The notes under the pieces were generated by a model, which saw nothing but the letters and a program-made list of their open reading frames with translations, was not told the origin of the DNA and ran no database searches. Positions 22,865-62,927 of a stretch of 64,000 nt of DNA are shown one piece after another (the first letter of the stretch is position 1; each line of letters opens with the position of its first letter). Origin of the DNA: Sulfuritalea sp. (GTDB lineage: Bacteria > Pseudomonadota > Gammaproteobacteria > Burkholderiales > Rhodocyclaceae); NCBI GenBank assembly GCA_030680805.1, contig JAUXUK010000047.1:1-64000 (forward strand), read 5' to 3'. The position numbers were made by a program, and so were the translations under genes.

Positions 22865-22879
22865 CGGCAATAATTGCCG
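22865..22879. promoter_or_regulatory. Palindromic box CGGCAA-TAA-TTGCCG upstream of flhB
   Basis: Perfect 6+6 inverted repeat with a 3-base spacer, 18 bases before the flhB GTG. The same CGGCAA-N3-TTGCCG box occurs before flgB, flgK and between fliF and fleS. A poor GG-N10-GC element (22823-22836) starts 42 bases before the box; in flgK the same distance is 40, which hints at shared promoter architecture. Confidence 0.6.
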
Positions 22880-22897
22880 GTATGAGCGAGAACCTCC

Positions 22898-24043
22898 GTG
22901 GCTGAAGAAAGCGACCTCGAACGAACCGAGCCCGCGTCGACGCGGCGCCTTGAACAGGCGCGCGAAGAGGGCAATGTTCCGCAGTCGCGCGAACTAATGG
23001 CCTTCATGGTCTTGGCCGCCGGCGCGGGCGCTTTCTGGATTCTCGGTGGCTGGCTCGCGCAGCGATCATCGAGCCTGTTGCGGAATGGTTTGAGTTTCAG
23101 CCGCGAAGCCGCTTTTGATACGGCCTTGATGACCGGTTCGGCGCTATCGCTGACCGCCGAAGCCTTCGTCATTGCCGGGCCGATTTTCCTTCTCGCCATC
23201 GCAGCGGCCATTGCCGCTCCCTTCATGATCGGCGGCGGCGTGATTTCCCCCAAGGCGTTCAAGCTGGATCTCAACCGGATGGATCCCATCAAGGGTCTCG
23301 GGCGAATGTTCTCTGTGCAAAGCCTGGCCGAACTGGTCAAGGCGGTGCTCAAGGCGCTGCTGATTGCTGGTGTTCTGTATTGGGTGGTGAAGCATGAGCA
23401 GGATCGCCTGTTCGCCTTGCTCGGCCAGCCGATCGAAACCGCGCTGATTTCGTTTGCGCAGGTGCTGCTCTACAGCTTTGTCGCGATTGTCGTCGGCCTT
23501 GCTGTTATCGCTGCAATCGATGTCCCGTTTCAGCTCTGGCAATACCATGACCGGCTGAAGATGACCAAAGAGGAGTTGAAGCGGGAAGCCAGGGAGAGTG
23601 AGGGCGATCCGTATCTCAAGGCACGCATCCGCAGCCAGCAGCGGGAACTGGCGCGCAGTCGCATGATGTCGGCAGTGCCCAAGGCCGACGTGGTGGTCAC
23701 CAACCCGACGCATTTTGCCGTCGCCCTGAAGTACGAGAGCGGCACCATGGGCGCACCAACCGTGGTCGCCAAGGGGATGAACCTGATTGCGCAAAGGATC
23801 CGTGAACTGGCGGACGAAAATCAGGTGCCGATCCTCGAAGCGCCGCCGTTGGCACGGGCGCTGTACCGTCATACGGATGTCGGCGAGCAGATCCCGGCGC
23901 CGCTCTATAGGGCAGTGGCCGAGGTCATGGCCTATGTCTACCAGTTGAACCAGTTTGCGATATCGGCGGGAAATCTGCTGCCCCCGGTTGCGCCTGCGGC
24001 GATCGCCGTGCCGGAAGGAATGGATCCGGGGACTCCTGAATGA
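22898..24043 (+). CDS. flhB: Flagellar export switch protein FlhB
   Basis: A protein of 381 residues: charged N-terminus (ESDLERTEPASTRRLEQAREEGNVPQSREL), four membrane segments (about 30-210) and a cytoplasmic domain with the autocleavage site NPTH in VVVTNPTHFAVALKY. It sets export specificity from rod/hook to filament substrates. The start is GTG 22898; ATG 22881 is in another frame and soon stops. The stop overlaps the flhA start (ATGA). A short paralogue of its C-domain lies at 62.6 kb. Confidence 0.96.
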   Translation: MAEESDLERTEPASTRRLEQAREEGNVPQSRELMAFMVLAAGAGAFWILGGWLAQRSSSLLRNGLSFSREAAFDTALMTGSALSLTAEAFVIAGPIFLLAIAAAIAAPFMIGGGVISPKAFKLDLNRMDPIKGLGRMFSVQSLAELVKAVLKALLIAGVLYWVVKHEQDRLFALLGQPIETALISFAQVLLYSFVAIVVGLAVIAAIDVPFQLWQYHDRLKMTKEELKREARESEGDPYLKARIRSQQRELARSRMMSAVPKADVVVTNPTHFAVALKYESGTMGAPTVVAKGMNLIAQRIRELADENQVPILEAPPLARALYRHTDVGEQIPAPLYRAVAEVMAYVYQLNQFAISAGNLLPPVAPAAIAVPEGMDPGTPE

Positions 24044-32529: not shown

Positions 32530-32605
32530 GTCATTCCGGGCTTGACCCGGAATCCAGGAGGGTTTTCGACCGCCCGCTCTGGATTCCGGCGTGCGCCGGA
32601 ATGAC
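32530..32605. repeat. REP/MITE-like inverted repeat in the flgA-flgB gap (copy 1)
   Basis: A unit opens GTCATTCCGGG, contains CCCGGAATCCAG, and closes CTGGATTCCGG then CGCCGGAATGAC; its ends are inverted copies, so the whole can fold into a long hairpin. A second member lies at 37800-37866. Such GTCATTCC...GGAATGAC elements are common non-autonomous repeats in proteobacteria. The rest of the 407-base gap (32397-32803) holds the palindromic box and sigma-54 element listed separately and no gene. Confidence 0.85.
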
Positions 32606-32658
32606 AAGCTGACGTTCGTTGCTAATCAGGATTCTCAACGTGCCTGTTTGCAGGTTGG

Positions 32659-32673
32659 CGGCAAGTTTTGCCG
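32659..32673. promoter_or_regulatory. Palindromic box CGGCAA-GTT-TTGCCG upstream of flgB
   Basis: Perfect 6+6 inverted repeat with spacer GTT, identical to the box before flgK. It lies about 75 bases before the predicted flgB sigma-54 element, a normal distance for an upstream enhancer site. It could also serve flgA, which diverges. Confidence 0.65.
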
Positions 32674-32747: not shown

Positions 32748-32763
32748 TGGCACGGATGATGCA
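32748..32763 (+). promoter_or_regulatory. Predicted sigma-54 promoter of flgB
   Basis: TGGCACGGATGATGCA has GG-N10-GC spacing with a perfect -24 half (TGGCACG) and ATGC at -12 instead of TTGC. The start would be near 32774, 30 bases before the flgB GTG. It would drive flgBCDEF and the genes after. Confidence 0.75.
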
Positions 32764-32803: not shown

Positions 32804-33211
32804 GTGACAGACAGAATCGACGCCCTTCTCCAAGTCAAGCGCAGTGCCCTGAACCTGCGGGCCTATCGTCAGGAGCTGCTCGCTTCGAATATCGCCAACG
32901 CGGACACACCGAATTACAAGGCGCGGGACATTGATTTCAAAGGGGCTCTCGAAAGCGCGCTCTCGGGTCGTACCGAAGGAAGCCTGACTTTGGCCAGAAC
33001 TTCCTCGCGCCATCTGGGCAGTGAGATCAATCAGCCGTCTGGCGCTACCGCCAAGTACCGCACCGAGTTTCAGCCGAACGTGGATGGCAACACGGTGAAT
33101 ATGGATGTCGAACGCGCCGCGTTTGCCGAGAACGCAGTACAGATGGAAGCAATGCTGACCTTCATCCGCGGCAATTTGAACACCCTGCAGACCGCAATGC
33201 AGAGCCAGTAA
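32804..33211 (+). CDS. flgB: Flagellar proximal rod protein FlgB
   Basis: A rod protein of 135 residues: [44 protein letters not shown] at the start and [23 protein letters not shown] at the end, both typical. The start is taken as GTG 32804 by alignment to the family, not the ORF-track start at 32723, which would include leader sequence before the predicted sigma-54 start site. No clear ribosome site precedes it. flgC follows after 11 bases. Confidence 0.93.
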
Positions 33212-41609: not shown

Positions 41610-41625
41610 TGGCACGCCCATTGCT
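41610..41625 (+). promoter_or_regulatory. Predicted sigma-54 promoter of flgK
   Basis: TGGCACGCCCATTGCT matches the consensus TGGCACG-N4-TTGCW at every fixed position. The start would be near 41637. The palindromic box follows at 41651-41665, so a regulator site would lie downstream of the start, as described for FlrC at Vibrio flagellar promoters. Confidence 0.88.
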
Positions 41626-41650
41626 CTAATTCACGTGAAGACTTAACTAA

Positions 41651-41665
41651 CGGCAAGTTTTGCCG
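41651..41665. promoter_or_regulatory. Palindromic box CGGCAA-GTT-TTGCCG in the flgK leader
   Basis: Perfect 6+6 inverted repeat, identical to the flgB box. It lies about 15-29 bases after the predicted transcription start and 27 bases before the flgK ATG. As RNA it could also form a small hairpin. Confidence 0.7.
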
Positions 41666-41692: not shown

Positions 41693-43621
41693 ATGGGCCT
41701 TTTCAATGTTGGCGTCAGCGGTCTCAATGCCGCGCAGGCTGGCATCCTCACCGCCAGTCACAATATCTCGAATGCGTCGACGCCGGGCTTCAGCCGGCAG
41801 CAGATTCTTCAAGGTACCAACATACCCATGGTCACCGGCTCGGGTTTTCAGGGGCAAGGCACGCACGTACAGACCGTCAGCCGCATCTATGACGCGTTTC
41901 TTGCGCGACAGGTACTCAGCGCAGAGGCGTCGGCTACCGAGATGGACAGCTATCTCGCGCAGATCGTGCAGATTGACAACATTCTGGCCGATCCCAGCGC
42001 CGGTCTGTCGCCGGCACTGACCGCGTTCTTCAAGGGTGTCCAGGACGTGGCGGCCAATCCATCCTCGATTCCCGGCCGTCAATCGATGCTTTCAGCGGCG
42101 CAGGCGCTGGTGGCGCGGTTTCAGTCGCTGGATCAGCGCCTGTCGGAAATCCGCAGCGGTACCAATCAACAGATCACGGTCCAGATCGGCCAGATCAATG
42201 CCTACACCTCGCAACTGGCCGACATCAATCAGCGCATCATTCTGGCGCAGACCATTGGCGGCAATCAGCCGCCGAACGATCTGCTCGACCAACGCGACCA
42301 GATGATCAAGGATCTCAACAAGCTGGTGCGGGTGACCACCATCACGCAGGGCGATGGTAGCTTCAGCGTGTTCATGGGCAGCGGCCAGCCTTTGGTGATC
42401 GGCACCCAGTCTTATCAATTACAGGCAGTTCAGGCGGTCGACGATCCCGAACGCACTACCGTCGCAATAGTCGGCGTTGGCGGTACGGCGCTTACTCTCC
42501 CTGAAACCCAGGTTACCGGCGGCAGCCTCGGCGGCTTGATAAGCTTCCGCAGCCAGACGCTGGATGCGGCGCAAAACGCCATCGGCCGGATTGCCCTGAC
42601 CCTGGCGCAGAACTTCAACGACCAGAACAAACTGGGACAGGATCTGACCGGTGCGCTGGGACAAAGTCTGTTCACTGTTTCGACGCCAACCGTGCGGTCC
42701 AGCAGTCTGAATACCGGAACAGGGGTGGCGACCGCGAGCATCGATACCAGCACCATCGATCGACTCACCAGCAGCGACTATCGCCTGACCTTCAATGGTG
42801 GGGGCAACTACACTCTGACGCGTCTGTCTGACAACTCGGTCCTGGTGAACGGCGCGCCTCTGCCAGCGAGCGTCGATGGCATGGCGATCGCTGTCGGCGG
42901 CGTTCCGGTAGCTGGCGACAGCTTTCTGATTCAACCAACGCGCAGCGGCGCTCGCGACATTGCGGTGGCGTTTTCGGATGCGCGCATGATTGCCGCCGCG
43001 GCACCGATACGCACGGCTACGGCGCTGGCCAATACCGGCACAGCCAGCATCAGTTCGGGGACGGTGAATGCGCCGCCGCCGACCAATGTGAACCTGCAGC
43101 AAACGGTGACCATCACCTTTACCGGAGCGGCGACCTTCAACGTTACGGGTATCGGCGTGGGTCTTCCTGCAATCGGCGTGGCCTACACCAGCGGCGCAAA
43201 CATAAGCTACAACGGCTGGACGACACAGATCACCGGCAACCCGGTAGCCGGGGACGTGTTTTCCGTTGCCGCCAATGCCGGCGGAGTTGCCGACAACCGC
43301 AATGCAATGCTGATGGGCGCGCTGCAAACCAAGGCGACGATGATCGGGAGTTCCACCAGCAGTCCGACCGCGTCCTATCAGTCGGCCTATTCGCAGATTG
43401 TCGGTTCCGTCGGCAGCAAGACGAACGAAGTGCAGGCAATAGCAGCGGCGCAGCAAGGCCTGCTCGATCATGCCACGCAAGCCTTGCAGTCGACCTCCGG
43501 CGTCAACCTGGACGAGGAGGCGGCCAACCTGTTGCGCTATCAGCAAGCGTATCAGGCATCGGCCAAGGTGCTGGAAATCGCCAGCAAGGTATTCGATGAG
43601 ATTCTCGCTCTGGGCCGATGA
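41693..43621 (+). CDS. flgK: Hook-filament junction protein FlgK (HAP1)
   Basis: A junction protein of 642 residues. The N-terminus MGLFNVGVSGLNAAQAGILTASHNISNASTPGFSRQQ and the C-terminus VNLDEEAANLLRYQQAYQASAKVLEIASKVFDEILALG are typical. The central variable domain (about 330-550) is Gly/Thr-rich. ATG 41693 with GGAG five bases upstream is chosen instead of the ORF-track 41660, which would include the regulatory palindrome. flgL follows after 27 bases. Confidence 0.96.
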   Translation: MGLFNVGVSGLNAAQAGILTASHNISNASTPGFSRQQILQGTNIPMVTGSGFQGQGTHVQTVSRIYDAFLARQVLSAEASATEMDSYLAQIVQIDNILADPSAGLSPALTAFFKGVQDVAANPSSIPGRQSMLSAAQALVARFQSLDQRLSEIRSGTNQQITVQIGQINAYTSQLADINQRIILAQTIGGNQPPNDLLDQRDQMIKDLNKLVRVTTITQGDGSFSVFMGSGQPLVIGTQSYQLQAVQAVDDPERTTVAIVGVGGTALTLPETQVTGGSLGGLISFRSQTLDAAQNAIGRIALTLAQNFNDQNKLGQDLTGALGQSLFTVSTPTVRSSSLNTGTGVATASIDTSTIDRLTSSDYRLTFNGGGNYTLTRLSDNSVLVNGAPLPASVDGMAIAVGGVPVAGDSFLIQPTRSGARDIAVAFSDARMIAAAAPIRTATALANTGTASISSGTVNAPPPTNVNLQQTVTITFTGAATFNVTGIGVGLPAIGVAYTSGANISYNGWTTQITGNPVAGDVFSVAANAGGVADNRNAMLMGALQTKATMIGSSTSSPTASYQSAYSQIVGSVGSKTNEVQAIAAAQQGLLDHATQALQSTSGVNLDEEAANLLRYQQAYQASAKVLEIASKVFDEILALGR

Positions 43622-50333: not shown

Positions 50334-51596
50334 TCAAGCAAATACATCTATCATGCTACGTCCGGAGCTGCTTCTTGCAACTGCCTCGACTCCCTGCAAC
50401 GGGACGGTCGAAGCATAGCGCACGCTTTCATTCATTCCCGAATCCGGTTCATTTTTGGCGGACGACTGATGGGGTGACTCGGAACCCACCTGGGCTTGGC
50501 CAAGGCTGATGCCGGCATCGGCCAGCACTTCGCGCAACCGGTTCAGCGAGCTTTCCAGCGCTTCGCGGACCGCCGGGTTGGGCGAGGTGAATATGGCCGT
50601 GGCCTGATCACCGTTCATTGTCAGCGAAACCTCGATGCGACCAAGCTGGGGCGGGTTCAGCACCAGGTCCGCCTGCTGGCGGTTGTTGCCAACCATCCAG
50701 GTCAGTCTCTGGCCCATTTCTTCATGCCAGCCGGTTTGCCCCATAGGTGTGTCGAGACGCAGGCTCTGAGTTGATGAGGATCCGCTGGCCGCGCTGGTCG
50801 CACTGGTGGCGCCGGGAGCCATGGCCATGGCACGCTCCATGAGGGCATGGAAATCGCCGGCAGGGAGTTCGGGCGCAATATTCTCGCCGCTCTTGTGGCC
50901 CGCATCGGCATTAATTGCCGCATCAAACGCAATCTTGCCGGGAACCTGGCCTGTTCCGCCGGATTTTGCGGGGCCGGCAGCGGTGAAGGTCTCGTTTCGT
51001 GGCTCACCCTCTTGTTTGCGCGAGGCTGTATCCATGGCCGTGCCGGGTGCGCCGGACAGTGCTGCAGGCGCGATGGGCAGCGCTGCGGTGGGTGCCACAG
51101 GCTGGGCTGCGGCTGGTGCGACAGGCAGGGCTGCCACTGGTGCGACAGGCAGCGTCGCAGCAGGTGCAGCGGCCAAGGCTGCAGGAATTTGAGTCGGCGG
51201 CAGTGAAGCCGCTGTGTCAAGCGCAGGCAACAACGGCTGATCGGGGAGAGCTTCCGTAGTGGCCCCTGGAGCCACGGCGACGCCTGCCGGCCCCGCCAGA
51301 TTGGCCGCCAGAAGAGGGAAAAGTACTGTTAGATCAAGGCTGTTGGTATTGCCCTCCGCATCAGTTTGAGCCTCGGCGACAGCGGACTTGGAGTTGTTGT
51401 CAGTATCCGCGGCTGAGGTTTTCTTTTCCGTCCGGGCCTTGAGCACAGCGGCGAACGGAGATCCTGTCCCGTCTTCCCGGTCCGTCCTGCCGCTCTCGCC
51501 GGCGCGACTGGCCGCGTCGCTCTGCCCGAGCGCATTTGCATTCCCGGTGCCGCTCGAAGGAGGCGTTGGTGTAGCGTTGATCATCAATTCGGACAT
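50334..51596 (-). CDS. fliK: Hook-length control protein FliK
   Basis: A protein of 420 residues. The N-terminal two thirds are low complexity, with a short tandem PVAP-type repeat (about 140-180). The C-terminal domain (GQRLTWMVGNNRQQADLVLNPPQLGRIEVSLTMNGDQATAIFTSPNPAVREALESSLNRLREVLADAGISLGQAQV) is the FliK domain that switches FlhB. The start at 51596 with GGGAG upstream replaces the ORF-track 51803. A sigma-54 element lies just before it. A second FliK-like gene is at 62.9 kb. Confidence 0.95.
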   Translation of the reverse strand: MSELMINATPTPPSSGTGNANALGQSDAASRAGESGRTDREDGTGSPFAAVLKARTEKKTSAADTDNNSKSAVAEAQTDAEGNTNSLDLTVLFPLLAANLAGPAGVAVAPGATTEALPDQPLLPALDTAASLPPTQIPAALAAAPAATLPVAPVAALPVAPAAAQPVAPTAALPIAPAALSGAPGTAMDTASRKQEGEPRNETFTAAGPAKSGGTGQVPGKIAFDAAINADAGHKSGENIAPELPAGDFHALMERAMAMAPGATSATSAASGSSSTQSLRLDTPMGQTGWHEEMGQRLTWMVGNNRQQADLVLNPPQLGRIEVSLTMNGDQATAIFTSPNPAVREALESSLNRLREVLADAGISLGQAQVGSESPHQSSAKNEPDSGMNESVRYASTVPLQGVEAVARSSSGRSMIDVFA

Positions 51597-51637: not shown

Positions 51638-51654
51638 TGCAAGGGATGTGCCAA
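51638..51654 (-). promoter_or_regulatory. Predicted sigma-54 promoter of fliK-fliR
   Basis: Read on the minus strand, TTGGCACATCCCTTGCA matches TTGGCAC-N5-TTGCW. It begins directly after the fliJ stop and would start transcription near 51628, about 30 bases before the fliK ATG. It makes fliKLMNOPQR a unit separate from fliFGHIJ. Confidence 0.88.
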
Positions 51655-54180: not shown

Positions 54181-55190
54181 CAGACGAAGGCGTCGCCTTC
54201 ACCTCCGCCGCCAAGTTGGAGCTGACCTTCGTCGGCAAGCCGGCGGGCGATCTTGAGGATTTCCTTCTGCTCGCCTTCGACTTCGGAAAGGCGCACGGGA
54301 CCCTTGGATTCGAGATCCTCCCGCAACATTTCGGCGGCTCGTTGCGACATGTTCTTGAATACTTTTTCACGCAGTTCCTGCGAAGCGCCCTTCAGCGCGA
54401 TGATCAGCGAGTCCGACTGCACTTCGCGCAACAGCAGCTGGATGCCGCGGTCATCGATGTCCAGCAGGTTCTCGAAGACGAACATTTCATCGAGAATTTT
54501 CTGCGCGAGTTCAGGGTCGTATTCGCGCACGTTGTCGACAATGGCGGTTTCCACCTGCTGGCCGACAAAGTTGAGAATTTCCGCGGCGTGGCGAATCCCT
54601 CCCATGGCGGCCTTCTTGACGTTGCCGGAGGAACTGGCGAGGATCCGCTTCAGCGCCTCGTTCAGCTCGCGCAGTGCGGTGGGCTGCACGCCGTCGAGGG
54701 TGGCAATGCGCAACAGCACATCATTGCGCAGGCGTTCCGTGAAGTGCTTCAGAATCTCTCCGGCCTGGTCGAATTCGAGGTGCACCAGGATGGTGGCAAT
54801 GATTTGCGGGTGTTCGTTGCGAATCATGTCGGCCACCGTGGCGGCATCCATCCATTTCAGGCCTTCGATGCCGGCGGTGTCTCCGCCCTGCATGATGCGG
54901 CTGATCAGGTTGGCGGCACGATCATCGCCCAGCGCCTTGGTCAGCATGGCCTTGATGGTTTCGTTGTCGACGGCAACGGGCGCGCCCTTGGCCGCATGAT
55001 CCTCGAACTCGTCGATCACCTTCTCGATGCGGTCGCGTGGCACCTGCTTCAAGGCGGCCATGGCGTGGCCGAGCTTCTGCACCTCTTTCGGACCAAGGTT
55101 CTTCAGTATCTCGGCAGCCTCGTCCTGCCCGAGGGAAAGCAGCAGGATGGCGGCCTTTTCTACGCCTTCACTTTCAGTGCTCGCCGCCAT
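54180..55190 (-). CDS. fliG: Flagellar motor switch protein FliG
   Basis: A rotor protein of 336 residues. N-terminal EKAAILLLSLGQDEAAEILKNLGPKEVQKLGHAMAAL; middle domain EHPQIIATILVHLEFDQAGEILKHF; and the torque-generating C-domain (MFVFENLLDIDDRGIQLLLREVQSDSLIIALKGASQELREKVFKNMSQRAAEMLREDLESKGPVRLSEVE) are all standard. It overlaps the end of fliF by 17 bases. Confidence 0.97.
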   Translation of the reverse strand: MAASTESEGVEKAAILLLSLGQDEAAEILKNLGPKEVQKLGHAMAALKQVPRDRIEKVIDEFEDHAAKGAPVAVDNETIKAMLTKALGDDRAANLISRIMQGGDTAGIEGLKWMDAATVADMIRNEHPQIIATILVHLEFDQAGEILKHFTERLRNDVLLRIATLDGVQPTALRELNEALKRILASSSGNVKKAAMGGIRHAAEILNFVGQQVETAIVDNVREYDPELAQKILDEMFVFENLLDIDDRGIQLLLREVQSDSLIIALKGASQELREKVFKNMSQRAAEMLREDLESKGPVRLSEVEGEQKEILKIARRLADEGQLQLGGGGEGDAFV

Positions 55191-56790
55191 CTACCCAGTC
55201 CTTGATCATGCCGGCGACTGCCTTGGGGTCCTTCTTTGCAATTTCGCGGGCATCGGCCAGCTTTTCGTCATAGCCACGATGACGGTGCAGCATGCCGTCG
55301 GCACCGACCTCGAACTCGCTCTTCTTCGGCGCCATTCGCGGCGGTGGCGGTTCCAGCAGTTTCTCGAACACCGGCCGCAACAGGCGGGTCCACAACCAGA
55401 AGGCCGCGCCGGCAATGATCAAGTACCTTGCCAGTTCTTTCAGGGTCGCAATCAGTTCCTGATTGGCCCAGATCGGCGCATCGGCAATGACTTCCTTTTC
55501 CGCCGCCGTGAAGGGCGCATTGGCGACATTCAGGGTGTCGCCACGCTCCTTGCTGAAGCCCATGGCCTGGCGGGCAAGATCGGTAATCTGGGTGAGTTCG
55601 GCGGGTGTCAGCGGAATCGGTTTGGGCTTGGTCGGGTCCTTGCGGTGATTCACCACCACGGCCACCGAGAGGCGGCGCACCGAGCCAGGCGTTCCCTTGG
55701 TATGCCGAATGGTTTTGTCGACTTCATAGTTGATGGTCGCGTTGCGGGTGAAGTTTTGCGAGCTGCCGGCTGCAGCGCCTGCGGCGCCGGCCTGCCCGGG
55801 CTGGGTCAAGGGGGCGGTCGCCGGTACCGGCGGCTGGTTGCTCAGCGCACCCGGAATGCCCGCTGCCGAGGGCGATCCACTGCCGGCTTCCGCGGTCTGC
55901 TGGCTGCGAATCACGGTTTCCGCAGCGGGGTTGGGCTTGTAGGTCTCCGCGACCTGGTCGGTCTGCGAAAAGTCGAGATCGGCGGCGACCTGTGCGCGGA
56001 CGTTGTTCGGGCCCACCACCGGCGTCAGGATCGCCTCGATACGCTTGCCATAGTCAGCCTCGACTTCCCTCAGGAACTTGAGCTGGGTGGCATCGAGCCC
56101 GGCATCGCGCTGCGGGTCGCGCCGTTGCGAGATCAGTTTGCCTTCCTGGTCGATCACGCTGACGTTGTTCGCGCTGAGCTGCGGCACGCTCGATGCAACC
56201 AGATTGATGATGCCCGCTACCTGGATCGAATCCAGCGTACGTCCGGGGTGCAGGTTGACCAGTACCGAGGCAGAGGTCTTCTGGTCATCACGCAGGAAAG
56301 CCGTTTGTTTGGGAATGGCCAGATGCACCCGGGCGCCCCGCACGGCCGACAGCGACTGGACCGAACGGGCCAATTCGCCTTCCAGCGCGCGCTGGTAGTT
56401 GACCTGCTCGGCGAACTGGCTGACGCCGAGCTTCTGCGTCTCCATCAGTTCGAAGCCGACCAGTCCGCCCTTGGGCAGCCCCTGGGACGCCAGCTTCAGG
56501 CGCGTGTCATGCACCACCGTCTGCGGCACCAGAATGCCGCGGCCACCCTCGCTGAACCGGTAGGGTATGTTCTGCTGTGACAGTGCGGCAACGATCTGGC
56601 CGCCGTCTTTCTCGTCATGGATCGAGAACAGCAGGGCATAGGGAGGGTCCTTGGTCCACATCCAGCCGCCGGTGAGGACCGCCAGAAACAGCGCGACACC
56701 TACCAGTCCGGTCAGCTTCTGACGGGGGTCAAGGCGGAGAAATGCCTCAAACGATATCGGGAACGAATCGGTCGCTGTGTTTTCTGCCAT
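55174..56790 (-). CDS. fliF: Flagellar MS-ring protein FliF
   Basis: A protein of 538 residues with membrane helices near residues 27-46 and about 445-462. It shows YALLFSIHDEKDGGQIVAALSQQNIPYRFSEGGRGILVP, QRALEGELARSVQSLSAVRGARVHLAIPKQTAFLRD and VNHRKDP, all typical. The C-terminus (ADAREIAKKDPKAVAGMIKDWVDGGEH) binds FliG. It begins the minus-strand fliFGHIJ unit, with a sigma-54 element and the palindromic box just upstream. Confidence 0.97.
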   Translation of the reverse strand: MAENTATDSFPISFEAFLRLDPRQKLTGLVGVALFLAVLTGGWMWTKDPPYALLFSIHDEKDGGQIVAALSQQNIPYRFSEGGRGILVPQTVVHDTRLKLASQGLPKGGLVGFELMETQKLGVSQFAEQVNYQRALEGELARSVQSLSAVRGARVHLAIPKQTAFLRDDQKTSASVLVNLHPGRTLDSIQVAGIINLVASSVPQLSANNVSVIDQEGKLISQRRDPQRDAGLDATQLKFLREVEADYGKRIEAILTPVVGPNNVRAQVAADLDFSQTDQVAETYKPNPAAETVIRSQQTAEAGSGSPSAAGIPGALSNQPPVPATAPLTQPGQAGAAGAAAGSSQNFTRNATINYEVDKTIRHTKGTPGSVRRLSVAVVVNHRKDPTKPKPIPLTPAELTQITDLARQAMGFSKERGDTLNVANAPFTAAEKEVIADAPIWANQELIATLKELARYLIIAGAAFWLWTRLLRPVFEKLLEPPPPRMAPKKSEFEVGADGMLHRHRGYDEKLADAREIAKKDPKAVAGMIKDWVDGGEH

Positions 56791-56853: not shown

Positions 56854-56870
56854 TAGCAAGAGCGGTTCCT
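56854..56870 (-). promoter_or_regulatory. Predicted sigma-54 promoter of fliF
   Basis: Read on the minus strand, AGGAACCGCTCTTGCTA has GG-N10-GC spacing and a full TTGCT at -12; the -24 half is GGAAC rather than GGCAC. The start would be near 56844, about 53 bases before the fliF ATG. Confidence 0.65.
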
Positions 56871-56878
56871 GAAAGAAG

Positions 56879-56893
56879 CGGCAATTTTTGCCG
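56879..56893. promoter_or_regulatory. Palindromic box CGGCAA-TTT-TTGCCG between fliF and fleS
   Basis: Perfect 6+6 inverted repeat in the divergent fliF/fleS region. Its centre lies about 42 bases upstream of the predicted fliF start and about 67 bases before the fleS ATG. If FleR binds it, the box would give the regulator access to its own operon and to fliF. Confidence 0.65.
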
Positions 56894-56952
56894 GCATATC
56901 GACAGCCTGCTTTCCTTGTCCAGTCCAGATGATTCTGCCATCATCGGGTGTC

Positions 56953-58137
56953 ATGAACATCCCTGCGGTCTCAACCGCTCAATCCACCAGCGCAAGCGTT
57001 GCCCCCGGCGAGGCCGAGCATCTTGCCGAAGCCTTTCGGATTTTCAGCCAGGCATCGGAGGAACTCGCCAGCGCCTACAGCGAGTTGCAGGGGCAGGTGG
57101 CCCAGCTGACCGAAGAACTGGCGGCCGCCAACGGCGCGCTGCGCCAGCAGTATCAGGAGAAGGCGGCGATTACCGAGCGCCTGACGCTGCTGCTGGACGC
57201 CTTGCCTGCCGGTGTCGTGGTACTGGATGGAGTTGGCCGCGTGGTGCAGGCGAATCCTGCCGCGAATGAGGTTCTGGGCAATGCCATAGTCGGCGCTGGC
57301 TGGACGGCGATCGAGGCCGGGGCGCTGGCAGCCAGTGAAACACCGGGCGAATATCTCGCCGGCGACAGACGGCTGGCCGTCGCCGTTACGCCGCTGGATT
57401 CGGCGGGAGGGCGCATCGTGCTGCTGCATGACGTGACTGAAACCCAGCATCTCAAGACGCAGGCCGAACGCAACCAGCGACTGGCGGCGATGGGCGAAAT
57501 GGCGGCGCAACTGGCCCATCAGCTGCGCACACCGCTCGCGGCGGCGCTGCTGTATGCGGGCAATCTGGAGAACCCCGAACTGCCGGCGGCCAGCCGTGTT
57601 TCCATCGCCCAAAAGACCGTGGCGCGCCTGAAGCACCTCGAGCACCTGATTCAGGACATGCTGATGTTCGCCCGCGGCGAAGTGCTCGGGCGCGAGACCT
57701 TCGCCGTCGCCGACCTGCTGGCCGAACTGGCGCAAACCTTCGAGCCGCTGGCGAAAAGCCGCGGCATCGCCCTTCTGGTGACTGAGGAGAGCCGGGGCGG
57801 TGTGCTGACCGGGCATCGCAAATCGCTGGTCGGAGCGCTGACCAATCTGCTGGAGAACGCGCTGCAGGCCGTCGAGAGCGGCGGCCGCATTGATCTCGAT
57901 GCGAGGCGCGATGGGTCCCTGATTCTGCTTGCGGTGCGCGACAACGGGCGCGGCATGAACGCCGAGACCGCTGCGCGCCTGTTCGATCCGTTTTTCACTA
58001 CCCGGGCCGAAGGCACGGGCCTCGGACTTTCAATTGCACGCGGCGTTGCCCGTGCCCACGGCGGCGGCATCGAAGTTGTCTCCAGCCCCGGTGCGGGCGC
58101 CGAATTCATCCTCACACTGCCATGCCCGACGCTCTGA
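56953..58137 (+). CDS. fleS: Flagellar sensor histidine kinase FleS (FlrB)
   Basis: A soluble kinase of 394 residues: coiled coil (AEHLAEAFRIFSQASEELASAYSELQGQVAQLTEEL), PAS domain (LLDALPAGVVVLDGVGRVVQANPAANEVLG), HisKA with the phospho-His in MAAQLAHQLRTPLAAALLY, and HATPase (NLLENALQAV, DNGRGMN, TRAEGTGLGLSIARGVARAHGG). No membrane segment, as in FlrB/FleS. Start ATG 56953 is preferred, ATG 56929 is possible. It overlaps the fleR start by 16 bases. Confidence 0.94.
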   Translation: MNIPAVSTAQSTSASVAPGEAEHLAEAFRIFSQASEELASAYSELQGQVAQLTEELAAANGALRQQYQEKAAITERLTLLLDALPAGVVVLDGVGRVVQANPAANEVLGNAIVGAGWTAIEAGALAASETPGEYLAGDRRLAVAVTPLDSAGGRIVLLHDVTETQHLKTQAERNQRLAAMGEMAAQLAHQLRTPLAAALLYAGNLENPELPAASRVSIAQKTVARLKHLEHLIQDMLMFARGEVLGRETFAVADLLAELAQTFEPLAKSRGIALLVTEESRGGVLTGHRKSLVGALTNLLENALQAVESGGRIDLDARRDGSLILLAVRDNGRGMNAETAARLFDPFFTTRAEGTGLGLSIARGVARAHGGGIEVVSSPGAGAEFILTLPCPTL

Positions 58138-59525
58138 AGATACTGGTTGTCGAAGACGACGCCGCCTTGCGCGACGCCCTTCTGATCACGCTTGAAACGG
58201 CCGGACATCGCGTGTCGGGCGCCGACAGTGGCCCGGCGGCACTGGCCGCGCTGGCGGCAATGGCCCGCGATCCATTCAGCATGGTGGTTTCGGATCTGCG
58301 CATGGATCCGATGGACGGCCTCACCCTGTTGGGCGAAATACGGAGCCGGTATCCGGGCCTGCCGGTGCTGCTGATGACGGCCTTTGGTGATGTGGACAAG
58401 GCCGTCGCGGCGATGCGTGGCGGCGCCTGCGATTTCATGTTGAAGCCCTTCGAGCCGAAGACCCTGATCGACCAGATTGCGCGCTATGCCGTACCCCCCC
58501 CGGCCGCCGACGGGGTGATTGTTGCCGATCCAAAAACGCGCGAAACGCTGCTCCTCGCGGCGCGCGTGGCAAAGACTGACGCGACCGTGCTGCTTACCGG
58601 GGAATCCGGCGTTGGCAAGGAAGTGTTCGCTCGCTATATCCACGATCAATCAGCGCGGGCAGGCGGGCCTTTTGTGGCGATCAACTGCGCCGCGATTCCC
58701 GACAATCTCCTCGAAGCAACGCTCTTCGGCTACGAGAAGGGCGCTTTCACGGGCGCCCAGACGGCGCAGGCGGGGAAGTTCGAGCAGGCCAATGGCGGCA
58801 CCCTGCTGCTGGATGAAATATCCGAAATGCCGCTCGGACTGCAAGCCAAGCTGCTGCGCGTGTTGCAGGAACGCGAAGTCGAGCGCGTCGGCGGCAAGAA
58901 GCCGGTGGCCCTGGATATCCGCGTGTTGGCCACCAGCAATCGCGACATGGGCGGCGAGGTCCGCGTCGGGCGTTTTCGCGAAGACCTCTACTATCGGCTC
59001 AATGTCTTCCCGCTGGAGATTCCCGCCCTGCGCCAGCGTCCCGCCGACATCCTGCCCCTGGCTCGGCACTGGCTGGCAAGGCAGGCGGCTACCTCGCGCC
59101 GCGCGGCAAGATTTGCCGCTGCTGCCGAAGCACGGCTGGTGGCCTACCCCTGGCCGGGCAATGTGCGCGAGCTCGAAAATGTTGTCCAGCGTGCGCTGAT
59201 CATGACGGCCGGTGAAGTGATCGAGGCTGACAGTCTCCCGCTTGAGGGCGCGATGGCGCCTGCCGGACGGGTAGCTCCCGAGGCGGCGGCAGGCGCCCAA
59301 TTCGCCGTGTCGCCAGCGCCGAGTTTTGGCGAAACCCCGGCGACCACGGGCTCTCCGGTCAACATGAAGGATCTGGAACGGCAGCACATTCTGGATACCC
59401 TGGCCAGATGCGGCGGCTCGCGCAAGAAGGCGGTGGCGATTCTCGGCATCTCCGAGCGCACCCTGCGCTACAAATTGTCCCAGTATCGCGCCGAGGGGTT
59501 TTTCAATGACGAAGAAGAAGTTTGA
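58122..59525 (+). CDS. fleR: Sigma-54 activator FleR (FlrC), flagellar response regulator
   Basis: A protein of 467 residues: receiver (VVEDDAALRD, phospho-Asp in VSDLRMDPMDG, Lys in MLKPFEP), AAA+ sigma-54 interaction domain (TGESGVGKEVFAR, GAFTGAQT, GGTLLLDEISEMPL, REDLYYRLNVFPL) and a Fis-type helix-turn-helix (GGSRKKAVAILGISERTLRYKLSQYR). GAFTGA is intact, so it should activate the sigma-54 promoters in this window. The linker before the HTH includes repeat A (FAVSPAPSF). It precedes fliE, which has its own sigma-54 element. Confidence 0.95.
   Translation: MPDALKILVVEDDAALRDALLITLETAGHRVSGADSGPAALAALAAMARDPFSMVVSDLRMDPMDGLTLLGEIRSRYPGLPVLLMTAFGDVDKAVAAMRGGACDFMLKPFEPKTLIDQIARYAVPPPAADGVIVADPKTRETLLLAARVAKTDATVLLTGESGVGKEVFARYIHDQSARAGGPFVAINCAAIPDNLLEATLFGYEKGAFTGAQTAQAGKFEQANGGTLLLDEISEMPLGLQAKLLRVLQEREVERVGGKKPVALDIRVLATSNRDMGGEVRVGRFREDLYYRLNVFPLEIPALRQRPADILPLARHWLARQAATSRRAARFAAAAEARLVAYPWPGNVRELENVVQRALIMTAGEVIEADSLPLEGAMAPAGRVAPEAAAGAQFAVSPAPSFGETPATTGSPVNMKDLERQHILDTLARCGGSRKKAVAILGISERTLRYKLSQYRAEGFFNDEEEV
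59302..59327 (-). repeat. Short dispersed repeat A inside the fleR linker
   Basis: Read on the minus strand, AAAACTCGGCGCTGGCGACA opens a 26-base unit that differs from the 35639 copy by two bases. It encodes FAVSPAPSF between the AAA+ and HTH domains, in the same frame as the cheB copy. Confidence 0.75.
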
Positions 59526-59540
59526 TCGACAAGTGAAAGC

Positions 59541-59556
59541 CGGCACGGCGATTGCT
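59541..59556 (+). promoter_or_regulatory. Predicted sigma-54 promoter of fliE
   Basis: CGGCACGGCGATTGCT has exact GG-N10-GC spacing, GGCACG at -24 and TTGCT at -12. The start would be near 59567, about 26 bases before ATG 59593. A degenerate right half of the palindromic box (TTGCCA) overlaps the start codon region. Confidence 0.85.
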
Positions 59557-59592: not shown

Positions 59593-59919
59593 ATGGCCAT
59601 CGATACACGACAAATCGACCAGATGCTCTCCGAACTGCGTTCCGCCTCAGCCCTGGCGGGCGGCAAACCGGCGGCCAACGCCGCGCCTGCGGATGGGCCG
59701 GATTTCTCGCAGGTGCTGAAGTCCACCATCGATCAGGTTAACGCGGCCCAGTTGCAGGCTCGCACGATGGCCGACGACTTTTCCAGCGGACAGAGCAACG
59801 TCAATCTGCAGGACGTCATGATCAACCTGCAAAAGGCCAACCTGTCGTTCCAGCAGATGGTGCAGGTCAGGAACAAACTGGTGTCGGCCTATCAAGACAT
59901 CATGCACATTCAGGTCTGA
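59593..59919 (+). CDS. fliE: Flagellar hook-basal body junction protein FliE
   Basis: A protein of 108 residues connecting the MS-ring to the rod. DFSQVLKSTIDQVNAAQLQARTMADDFSSGQSNVNLQDVMINLQKANLSFQQMVQVRNKLVSAYQDIMHIQV is the complete family signature. TAAGG lies about eight bases before ATG 59593. It is transcribed away from fliF, after fleS/fleR, with its own sigma-54 element. Confidence 0.97.
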   Translation: MAIDTRQIDQMLSELRSASALAGGKPAANAAPADGPDFSQVLKSTIDQVNAAQLQARTMADDFSSGQSNVNLQDVMINLQKANLSFQQMVQVRNKLVSAYQDIMHIQV

Positions 59920-62612: not shown

Positions 62613-62927
62613 TTAGCCGAGATTTTCCGGAACCAGACGCTCCCCCGGGACCCCTTCGCGCTCAACCTGGTAGATCCAGGCCAGCAGTTCGGCGACCGCA
62701 ATGTAAAGCTGGGGGGGGATCTCTCCGTCAAGGTTGACTTGGGACAGCAATGCGACCAGTTCGGGCGATTCGTGCACAAAAATGCCGTGCTCGCGGGCGC
62801 GAGAGATGATCTCTTCAGCGATCAGGCCTCGTCCTTTTGCCACCACCGTCGGTGCCGAGTCGCCCGGTGAATACTTCAGCGCCACGGCAAGCGCCCGCGG
62901 TTCGCCGTCCTTACTCTTCGGCGGCAT
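62613..62927 (-). CDS. FlhB C-terminal-domain protein (FhlB/YlqH type)
   Basis: A protein of 104 residues equal to the cytoplasmic C-domain of FlhB: ALAVALKYSPGDSAPTVVAKGRGLIAEEIISRAREHGIFVHESPELVALLSQVNLDGEIPPQLYIAVAELLAWIYQVERE. It begins just where FlhB is cut, so NPTH itself is absent. It overlaps the upstream FliK-like gene by 17 bases; this pair is known in other bacteria (for example ylqG-ylqH). It might replace or compete with the cleaved FlhB C-fragment. The ORF-track start at 63431 is in the FliK-like frame. Confidence 0.92.
   Translation of the reverse strand: MPPKSKDGEPRALAVALKYSPGDSAPTVVAKGRGLIAEEIISRAREHGIFVHESPELVALLSQVNLDGEIPPQLYIAVAELLAWIYQVEREGVPGERLVPENLG

Follow-up and report, generated by a model that had tools for sequence, protein, structure and literature searches.

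What is a short palindrome doing in front of several flagellar operons, and which protein would read it? The window, i.e., the whole 64,000-nucleotide stretch of Sulfuritalea DNA that was analysed, contains flhB-flhA-flhF, fliA, flgA/flgB with the rod-hook operon, flgK, the fli operon from fliF to fliP, and fleS-fleR-fliE. The original prediction had described four perfect palindromes of the form CGGCAA-N3-TTGCCG (CGGCAANNNTTGCCG), and the positions given for them (22865, 32659, 41651, and 56879) were exact. It had also remarked that the perfect form was not seen elsewhere. A fifth perfect copy, at 59104 within fleR, had been overlooked. The expectation for the window is 0.01 copies, and no shuffle out of 100 gave five. 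When only the core CGGCA-N5-TGCCG was sought, eight copies were found in the window against 0.34 expected. Those beyond the five perfect ones lie at 50906 (in fliK, conserved, and likewise missed before), 10966, and 34448. Each intergenic box is close to a start codon (that of flhB, flgK, fliF, or flgB), at a distance of about 19 to 130 bases, while two boxes of this window lie in coding sequence, one in fleR and one (the core) in fliK.

Counts were extended by pattern searches to the whole assembly (3.14 Mb, 86% complete). Six perfect copies were obtained, five of them in the flagellar cluster; the sixth, on contig C84, falls in a coding sequence that is SixA-type phosphatase-like and has no flagellar link. 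The reversed pattern, used as control, gave one perfect match. When up to one mismatch was allowed, 44 copies appeared in the assembly, compared to 19 for the reversed control; hence the imperfect palindrome is mostly background. Within the genus, genomes with flagellar genes carry a mean of 4.8 perfect boxes, and those without carry 1.0. Two outcomes had been named beforehand as damaging to the idea, namely many copies unrelated to motility and a lack of conservation in relatives. Neither occurred: all but one of the six perfect copies fall within the flagellar cluster, and relatives retain the boxes. That the palindromes are functionless products of chance or common descent could draw on the perfect copy in a non-flagellar coding sequence and on the background nature of the one-mismatch copies. 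Set against the five copies where 0.01 was expected, the difference between flagellar and non-flagellar members of the genus, and a box geometry that is kept between species, we give this explanation next to no credence. Chance had already been ruled out for the flgB, flgK, fliE, and fliF boxes, and for the flhB box it is possible.

Sigma-54 elements were located by a consensus scan in which the GG was set at −25/−24, so that all start sites mentioned here are predictions. Four strong and well-placed elements were found, for fliK (51653, minus strand), flgK (41610), flgB (32748), and fliE (59541). Boxes were found for flgB, flgK, fliE, and fliK; therefore, none of the strong sigma-54 elements in the cluster is without one. 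The placement of the box relative to these promoters varies, being upstream, just downstream, or in coding DNA.

The flgB box (CGGCAAGTTTTGCCG, 32659–32673) is of the upstream kind. It spans about −115 to −101 from the start predicted for the sigma-54 promoter TGGCACGGATGATGCA (32748–32763, plus strand), which precedes flgB (32804–33211, plus strand) and is kept in 13/13 genus loci. The box itself is perfect in 16 of 17 loci of the genus and has a single mismatch in the remaining one. It may be noted that two inverted intergenic repeats of the GTCATTCCGG...CCGGAATCCAG type occupy 32530–32610 in the flgA/flgB gap, just upstream of this box. At flgK (41693–43621, plus strand), the predicted promoter TGGCACGCCCATTGCT (41610–41625, plus strand) is kept in all 19 genus loci, and the box (CGGCAAGTTTTGCCG, 41651–41665) lies past the predicted start site, at about +16 to +30, as had been claimed for it earlier. 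The box is perfect in 19/19 loci, and the distance between its start and that of the −24 element is constant at 41 bp.

The remaining two strong promoters are associated with boxes inside genes. For fliE (59593–59919, plus strand), the predicted sigma-54 promoter CGGCACGGCGATTGCT (59541–59556, plus strand; consensus scan) follows the fleR stop, and an element is present there in 20/20 genus members. The box CGGCAAGATTTGCCG (59104–59118) lies within fleR, at about −463 to −449 of fliE, and is perfect in 14 of the 20, the core being retained in 19. For fliK (50334–51593, minus strand, start codon approximate), the predicted promoter TGGCACATCCCTTGCA (51638–51653, minus strand) is conserved and has the top score of the window. 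The box CGGCATTAATTGCCG (50906–50920), with the core CGGCA-N5-TGCCG, is internal to the gene at about +708 to +722. After six regions without fliK had been left out, the core was found in 11/11 fliK genes of the genus, and likewise in G034, G048, G050, and G032.

Having located two boxes within genes, we asked if they could be by-products of coding that have no regulatory role. Both copies do share one reading phase on short alanine-containing stretches, and in fliK the codon test was hampered by poor alignment of the region. In fleR, however, the box codons (xCG, GCA, TTT, GCC) showed no synonymous variation in 20 genes, compared with a mean diversity of 0.44; among 456 four-codon windows, just two were as low, and the box window is one of them. 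The residue above the box spacer, by contrast, is variable (R, G, T, K, or V). Elsewhere, the box occupies a different place in fleR (G034, G036, G048, and G056), and in L012, L013, L014, and L060 (Accumulibacter, Propionivibrio, and a Rhodocyclales relative) a perfect box lies in fliE, across the promoter, where the local residues are AANFA as against ADDFS in this genome. In G049, G050, G051, and G037, neither a fleR box nor a strong sigma-54 element behind fleR was found. A coding by-product is thus a very unlikely account of the two copies; a coding accident had been our first idea for the fleR copy, and the codon test ruled it out. We conclude that, in the Accumulibacter group, the predicted fliE enhancer has moved out of fleR and now lies in fliE. 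As a separate observation, a stretch resembling the C-terminal domain of FlhB stands on its own near fliE (62661–62903, minus strand), and similar short ones occur in most relatives.

The two other intergenic copies differ from these. Between fliF (55174–56790, minus strand) and fleS lies the box CGGCAATTTTTGCCG (56879–56893), adjoined by a degenerate sigma-54-like element for fliF, AGGAACCGCTCTTGCT (56855–56870, minus strand). Among 20 genus members the box is perfect in 14, has one mismatch in four and two mismatches in two; the sigma-54-like element is kept in most members and lost in some. At this locus the four-box claim stood as regards conservation, but the element is degenerate, and repression is possible instead of activation. 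The flhB box (CGGCAATAATTGCCG, 22865–22879; flhB 22898–24043, plus strand) is the weakest of the set. In 13 genus loci it was perfect in five, had one mismatch in two and was lost in six, and the consensus scan found no sigma-54 element for flhB in the genus loci. It covers AATAAT, the sole part invariant among these loci, which may overlap a −10 element. Here the claim stood in so far as the copy is present; its conservation is poor, a sigma-54 promoter is absent, and it counts as a putative member of the set. Two further features were seen at these loci. Just before flhB (22881–22904), an ATG and six codons lead to a TGA, which overlaps, out of frame, the flhB start; the arrangement is kept in 12 aligned genomes and may be a coupled mini-ORF or mere ribosome-binding context. 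Before or at the fleS start (56929–56945), GATTCTGCCATCATC is near-invariant in 20 genus members, and it seems similar to half of the FlhDC site of enterobacteria.

Could the fliF/fleS and flhB boxes be repressor sites through which FleR shuts the early genes at the rod-hook stage, the one box serving both roles? The fliF box abuts a putative promoter, the flhB box is without a sigma-54 element and lies over the invariant AATAAT, a potential −10 element, and in Caulobacter FlbD represses fliF via ftr4 (PMC3930126). On the other hand, most members of the genus have the degenerate sigma-54-like element beside the fliF box, which would suit activation, and six of the 13 species have lost the palindrome at flhB. 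We regard the matter as evenly balanced.

To which protein could such a box be assigned? In the window, fleS (56929–58137, plus strand) encodes a sensor kinase with PAS, HisKA, and HATPase domains, and fleR (58122–59525, plus strand) encodes the presumed box binder, with a receiver, a sigma-54 AAA+ domain, and a Fis-type HTH (Pfam Response_reg, Sigma54_activat, and HTH_8). The best NCBIfam model for FleR is FlbD, with a score of 421.7 bits that is under the 750 cut-off of the Caulobacter equivalog; hence FleR is a homologue of FlbD and not FlbD itself. The closest solved structure is that of Vibrio cholerae FlrC. Judged by FleR, the nearest named relatives belong to the Rhodocyclaceae and their allies (Sulfuritalea, Azoarcus, Propionivibrio, and Accumulibacter).

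Outside the genus, the flgB box was present in all of the 14 sampled genomes with FleR (11 perfect, three with one mismatch) and in none of eight flagellate genomes without it. The order was then surveyed with a compound pattern, i.e., the box with a sigma-54 element 48–78 bp behind it, FleR-type HTHs being called at E = 1e-16, a value that lies in a broad gap in the list of scores. Among 399 genomes, the pattern occurred in 46/154 with a FleR-type HTH and in 0/245 without, although these genomes are kin to one another and Fisher values overstate their independence. Counted by family, the figures were 12/28 and 0/23, respectively. The reversed-pattern control gave none over the 399 genomes. 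That only 46 of the 154 have the exact compound pattern is partly because spacing and mismatches vary. This dependence on FleR across genomes is read from the sequences themselves, as are the boxes, their geometry to the sigma-54-like elements, and their conservation. One genome, G058, lacks a full FleR; a stand-alone protein of about 82 residues, corresponding to the FleR HTH only and homologous to no more than the C-terminus of FleR, is encoded directly before fliE (L295:2409-2687, contig C21), and perfect boxes are retained upstream of flgB and at fliD. This HTH-only protein may constitute a new, small FleR-derived regulator.

FleR would be a bystander if the box were instead the site of FlhDC or of a FleQ-type regulator. 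An FlhC gene is present in this genome outside the window, almost every member of the genus encodes FlhC, and the flhB and fliF/fleS copies stand at early genes, which are expected FlhDC targets. The flgB box, however, is kept in genomes without FlhC (G040, G049, and G050) and is absent from FlhC genomes that lack FleR; non-flagellate genus members retain FlhC with a mean of only 1.0 box. The box is also unlike the long FlhDC consensus. As for FleQ, no convincing one was found in the genome (assembly 86% complete), the sole match in G000 being one of 25 bits to the FleQ receiver family. This alternative is therefore quite unlikely; as binders, FlhDC and FleQ were both rejected on distribution, the box being independent of FlhC and FleQ not found. 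On the sequence evidence, FleR is most likely the box binder. It was also observed that eight genus genomes (G003, G004, G005, G011, G012, G013, G023, and G028) give a strong FlhC match and no flgK/fliF matches; FlhC is thus kept where the flagellar genes seem lost.

The nearest described site is that of FlbD in Caulobacter, reported as CCCGGCA-N5-TGCCGGG (PMC3333781). All the boxes fit its core palindrome, GGCA-N5-TGCC. FlbD is described as one that activates middle genes and represses fliF via ftr sites (PMC3930126). Boxes lie at the predicted flagellar sigma-54 promoters of flgB, flgK, fliE, and fliK, and a copy (56879, perfect in 14/20) lies at the fliF promoter. Since the core, the location at sigma-54 promoters, and the fliF copy are all found, the box agrees with ftr elements as far as sequence can show. 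The two systems share the core CGGCA-N5-TGCCG with equal spacing, its use at several flagellar sigma-54 promoters, the fliF copy, and a homologous activator. They differ in that Caulobacter FlbD has FliX as partner, no cognate kinase, and a position under CtrA, whereas here there are a FleS kinase and FlhDC. For copies in fleR, fliE, and fliK under synonymous constraint, no counterpart was found in those portions of the FlbD/ftr literature that were searched. A FlbD-like flagellar regulator of Desulfovibrio vulgaris, DVU1063, has the motif GGCAxxxxTGCC (PMC3333781); its printed spacing is one base shorter, and it belongs to another phylum.

Among the FleR-type regulators, Vibrio cholerae FlrC is part of a two-component system, FlrBC, that is orthologous in role, and its sites are true enhancers typically downstream of the start, like the flgK box (PMC6504787, citing Correa and Klose 2005). 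It differs in being under FlrA, a regulator of the FleQ type. In Pseudomonas, the same two-component system is present, and in P. syringae FleR sites have been reported at fliE and fliH (PMC7532196, PMC8335546); there FleSR answers to FleQ, a protein not found in the present genome. The original prediction of a FlrC/FlbD-type enhancer that FleR would bind is thus supported by the match to the FlbD site, the co-occurrence with FleR, the promoter geometry, and the FlrC-like downstream location.

In gammaproteobacterial loci, the box with the three-base spacer showed no convincing enrichment. With one extra spacer base, the half-site CGGCA gave 14 (rank 1/30), whereas permuted half-sites averaged 1.97. 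CGGCAA-N4-TTGCCG, with up to one mismatch, was found in the fliJ-fliK region of 13/30 loci, where permuted half-sites averaged 0.28; examples are L042:17158, L047:17338, L058:16328, and L061:8282, and the loci include Vibrio (L029, L030, L033, L037, and L039) and Shewanella. Hardly any enrichment of the four-base-spacer box was seen around gammaproteobacterial fliE. The gammaproteobacterial fliJ-fliK box therefore has one spacer base more than the box here, and the enrichment early in fliK marks it as a candidate FlrC site.

We think it highly probable that the palindrome is an ftr-type enhancer by which FleR would open the flgB, flgK, fliE, and fliK promoters and would more probably limit than activate fliF/fleS. 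For this model we infer binding, phosphorylation, the direction of regulation, and the use of the sigma-54-like elements as promoters. FleS would phosphorylate FleR, and the Fis-type HTH dimer of FleR would read the two CGGCA half-sites. Box-bound FleR would then contact sigma-54 RNA polymerase at flgB, flgK, fliE, and fliK, so opening the rod, hook, and hook-length promoters. The box would act from upstream (flgB), from just downstream (flgK), or from within a gene, fleR carrying the box for fliE and fliK its own. At the fliF/fleS box, which lies against an early-gene promoter, FleR would more probably limit expression, as FlbD does at Caulobacter fliF; that the flhB box limits expression likewise is more doubtful.

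As predicted from sequence, then, the enhancer set is real, conserved, and of an already known kind, the ftr type. Less expected are coding-sequence enhancers that switch the side of the promoter, and the presence of FleSR in a genome that has FlhDC and gave no detectable FleQ. We lean slightly towards a joint view in which a FleR enhancer code extends over the betaproteobacterial order and lies partly in coding sequence (in fleR for the operon behind, in fliK for itself), the fliE enhancer crossed its promoter, and in one FlhDC genome the activator shrank to its DNA-binding domain, the sigma-54 activation domain being dispensable and the boxes kept. A limited literature search yielded no recognition consensus for FleR/FlrC-type activators, for which the box provides a concrete candidate recognition sequence. 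It would tie the Caulobacter FlbD site to betaproteobacteria and, via one extra spacer base, to gammaproteobacteria. It also suggests that coding DNA in bacteria can conceal enhancers, which are then subject to synonymous constraint and can relocate in evolution, and that in this genome a FleSR layer would stand alongside FlhDC instead of FleQ.
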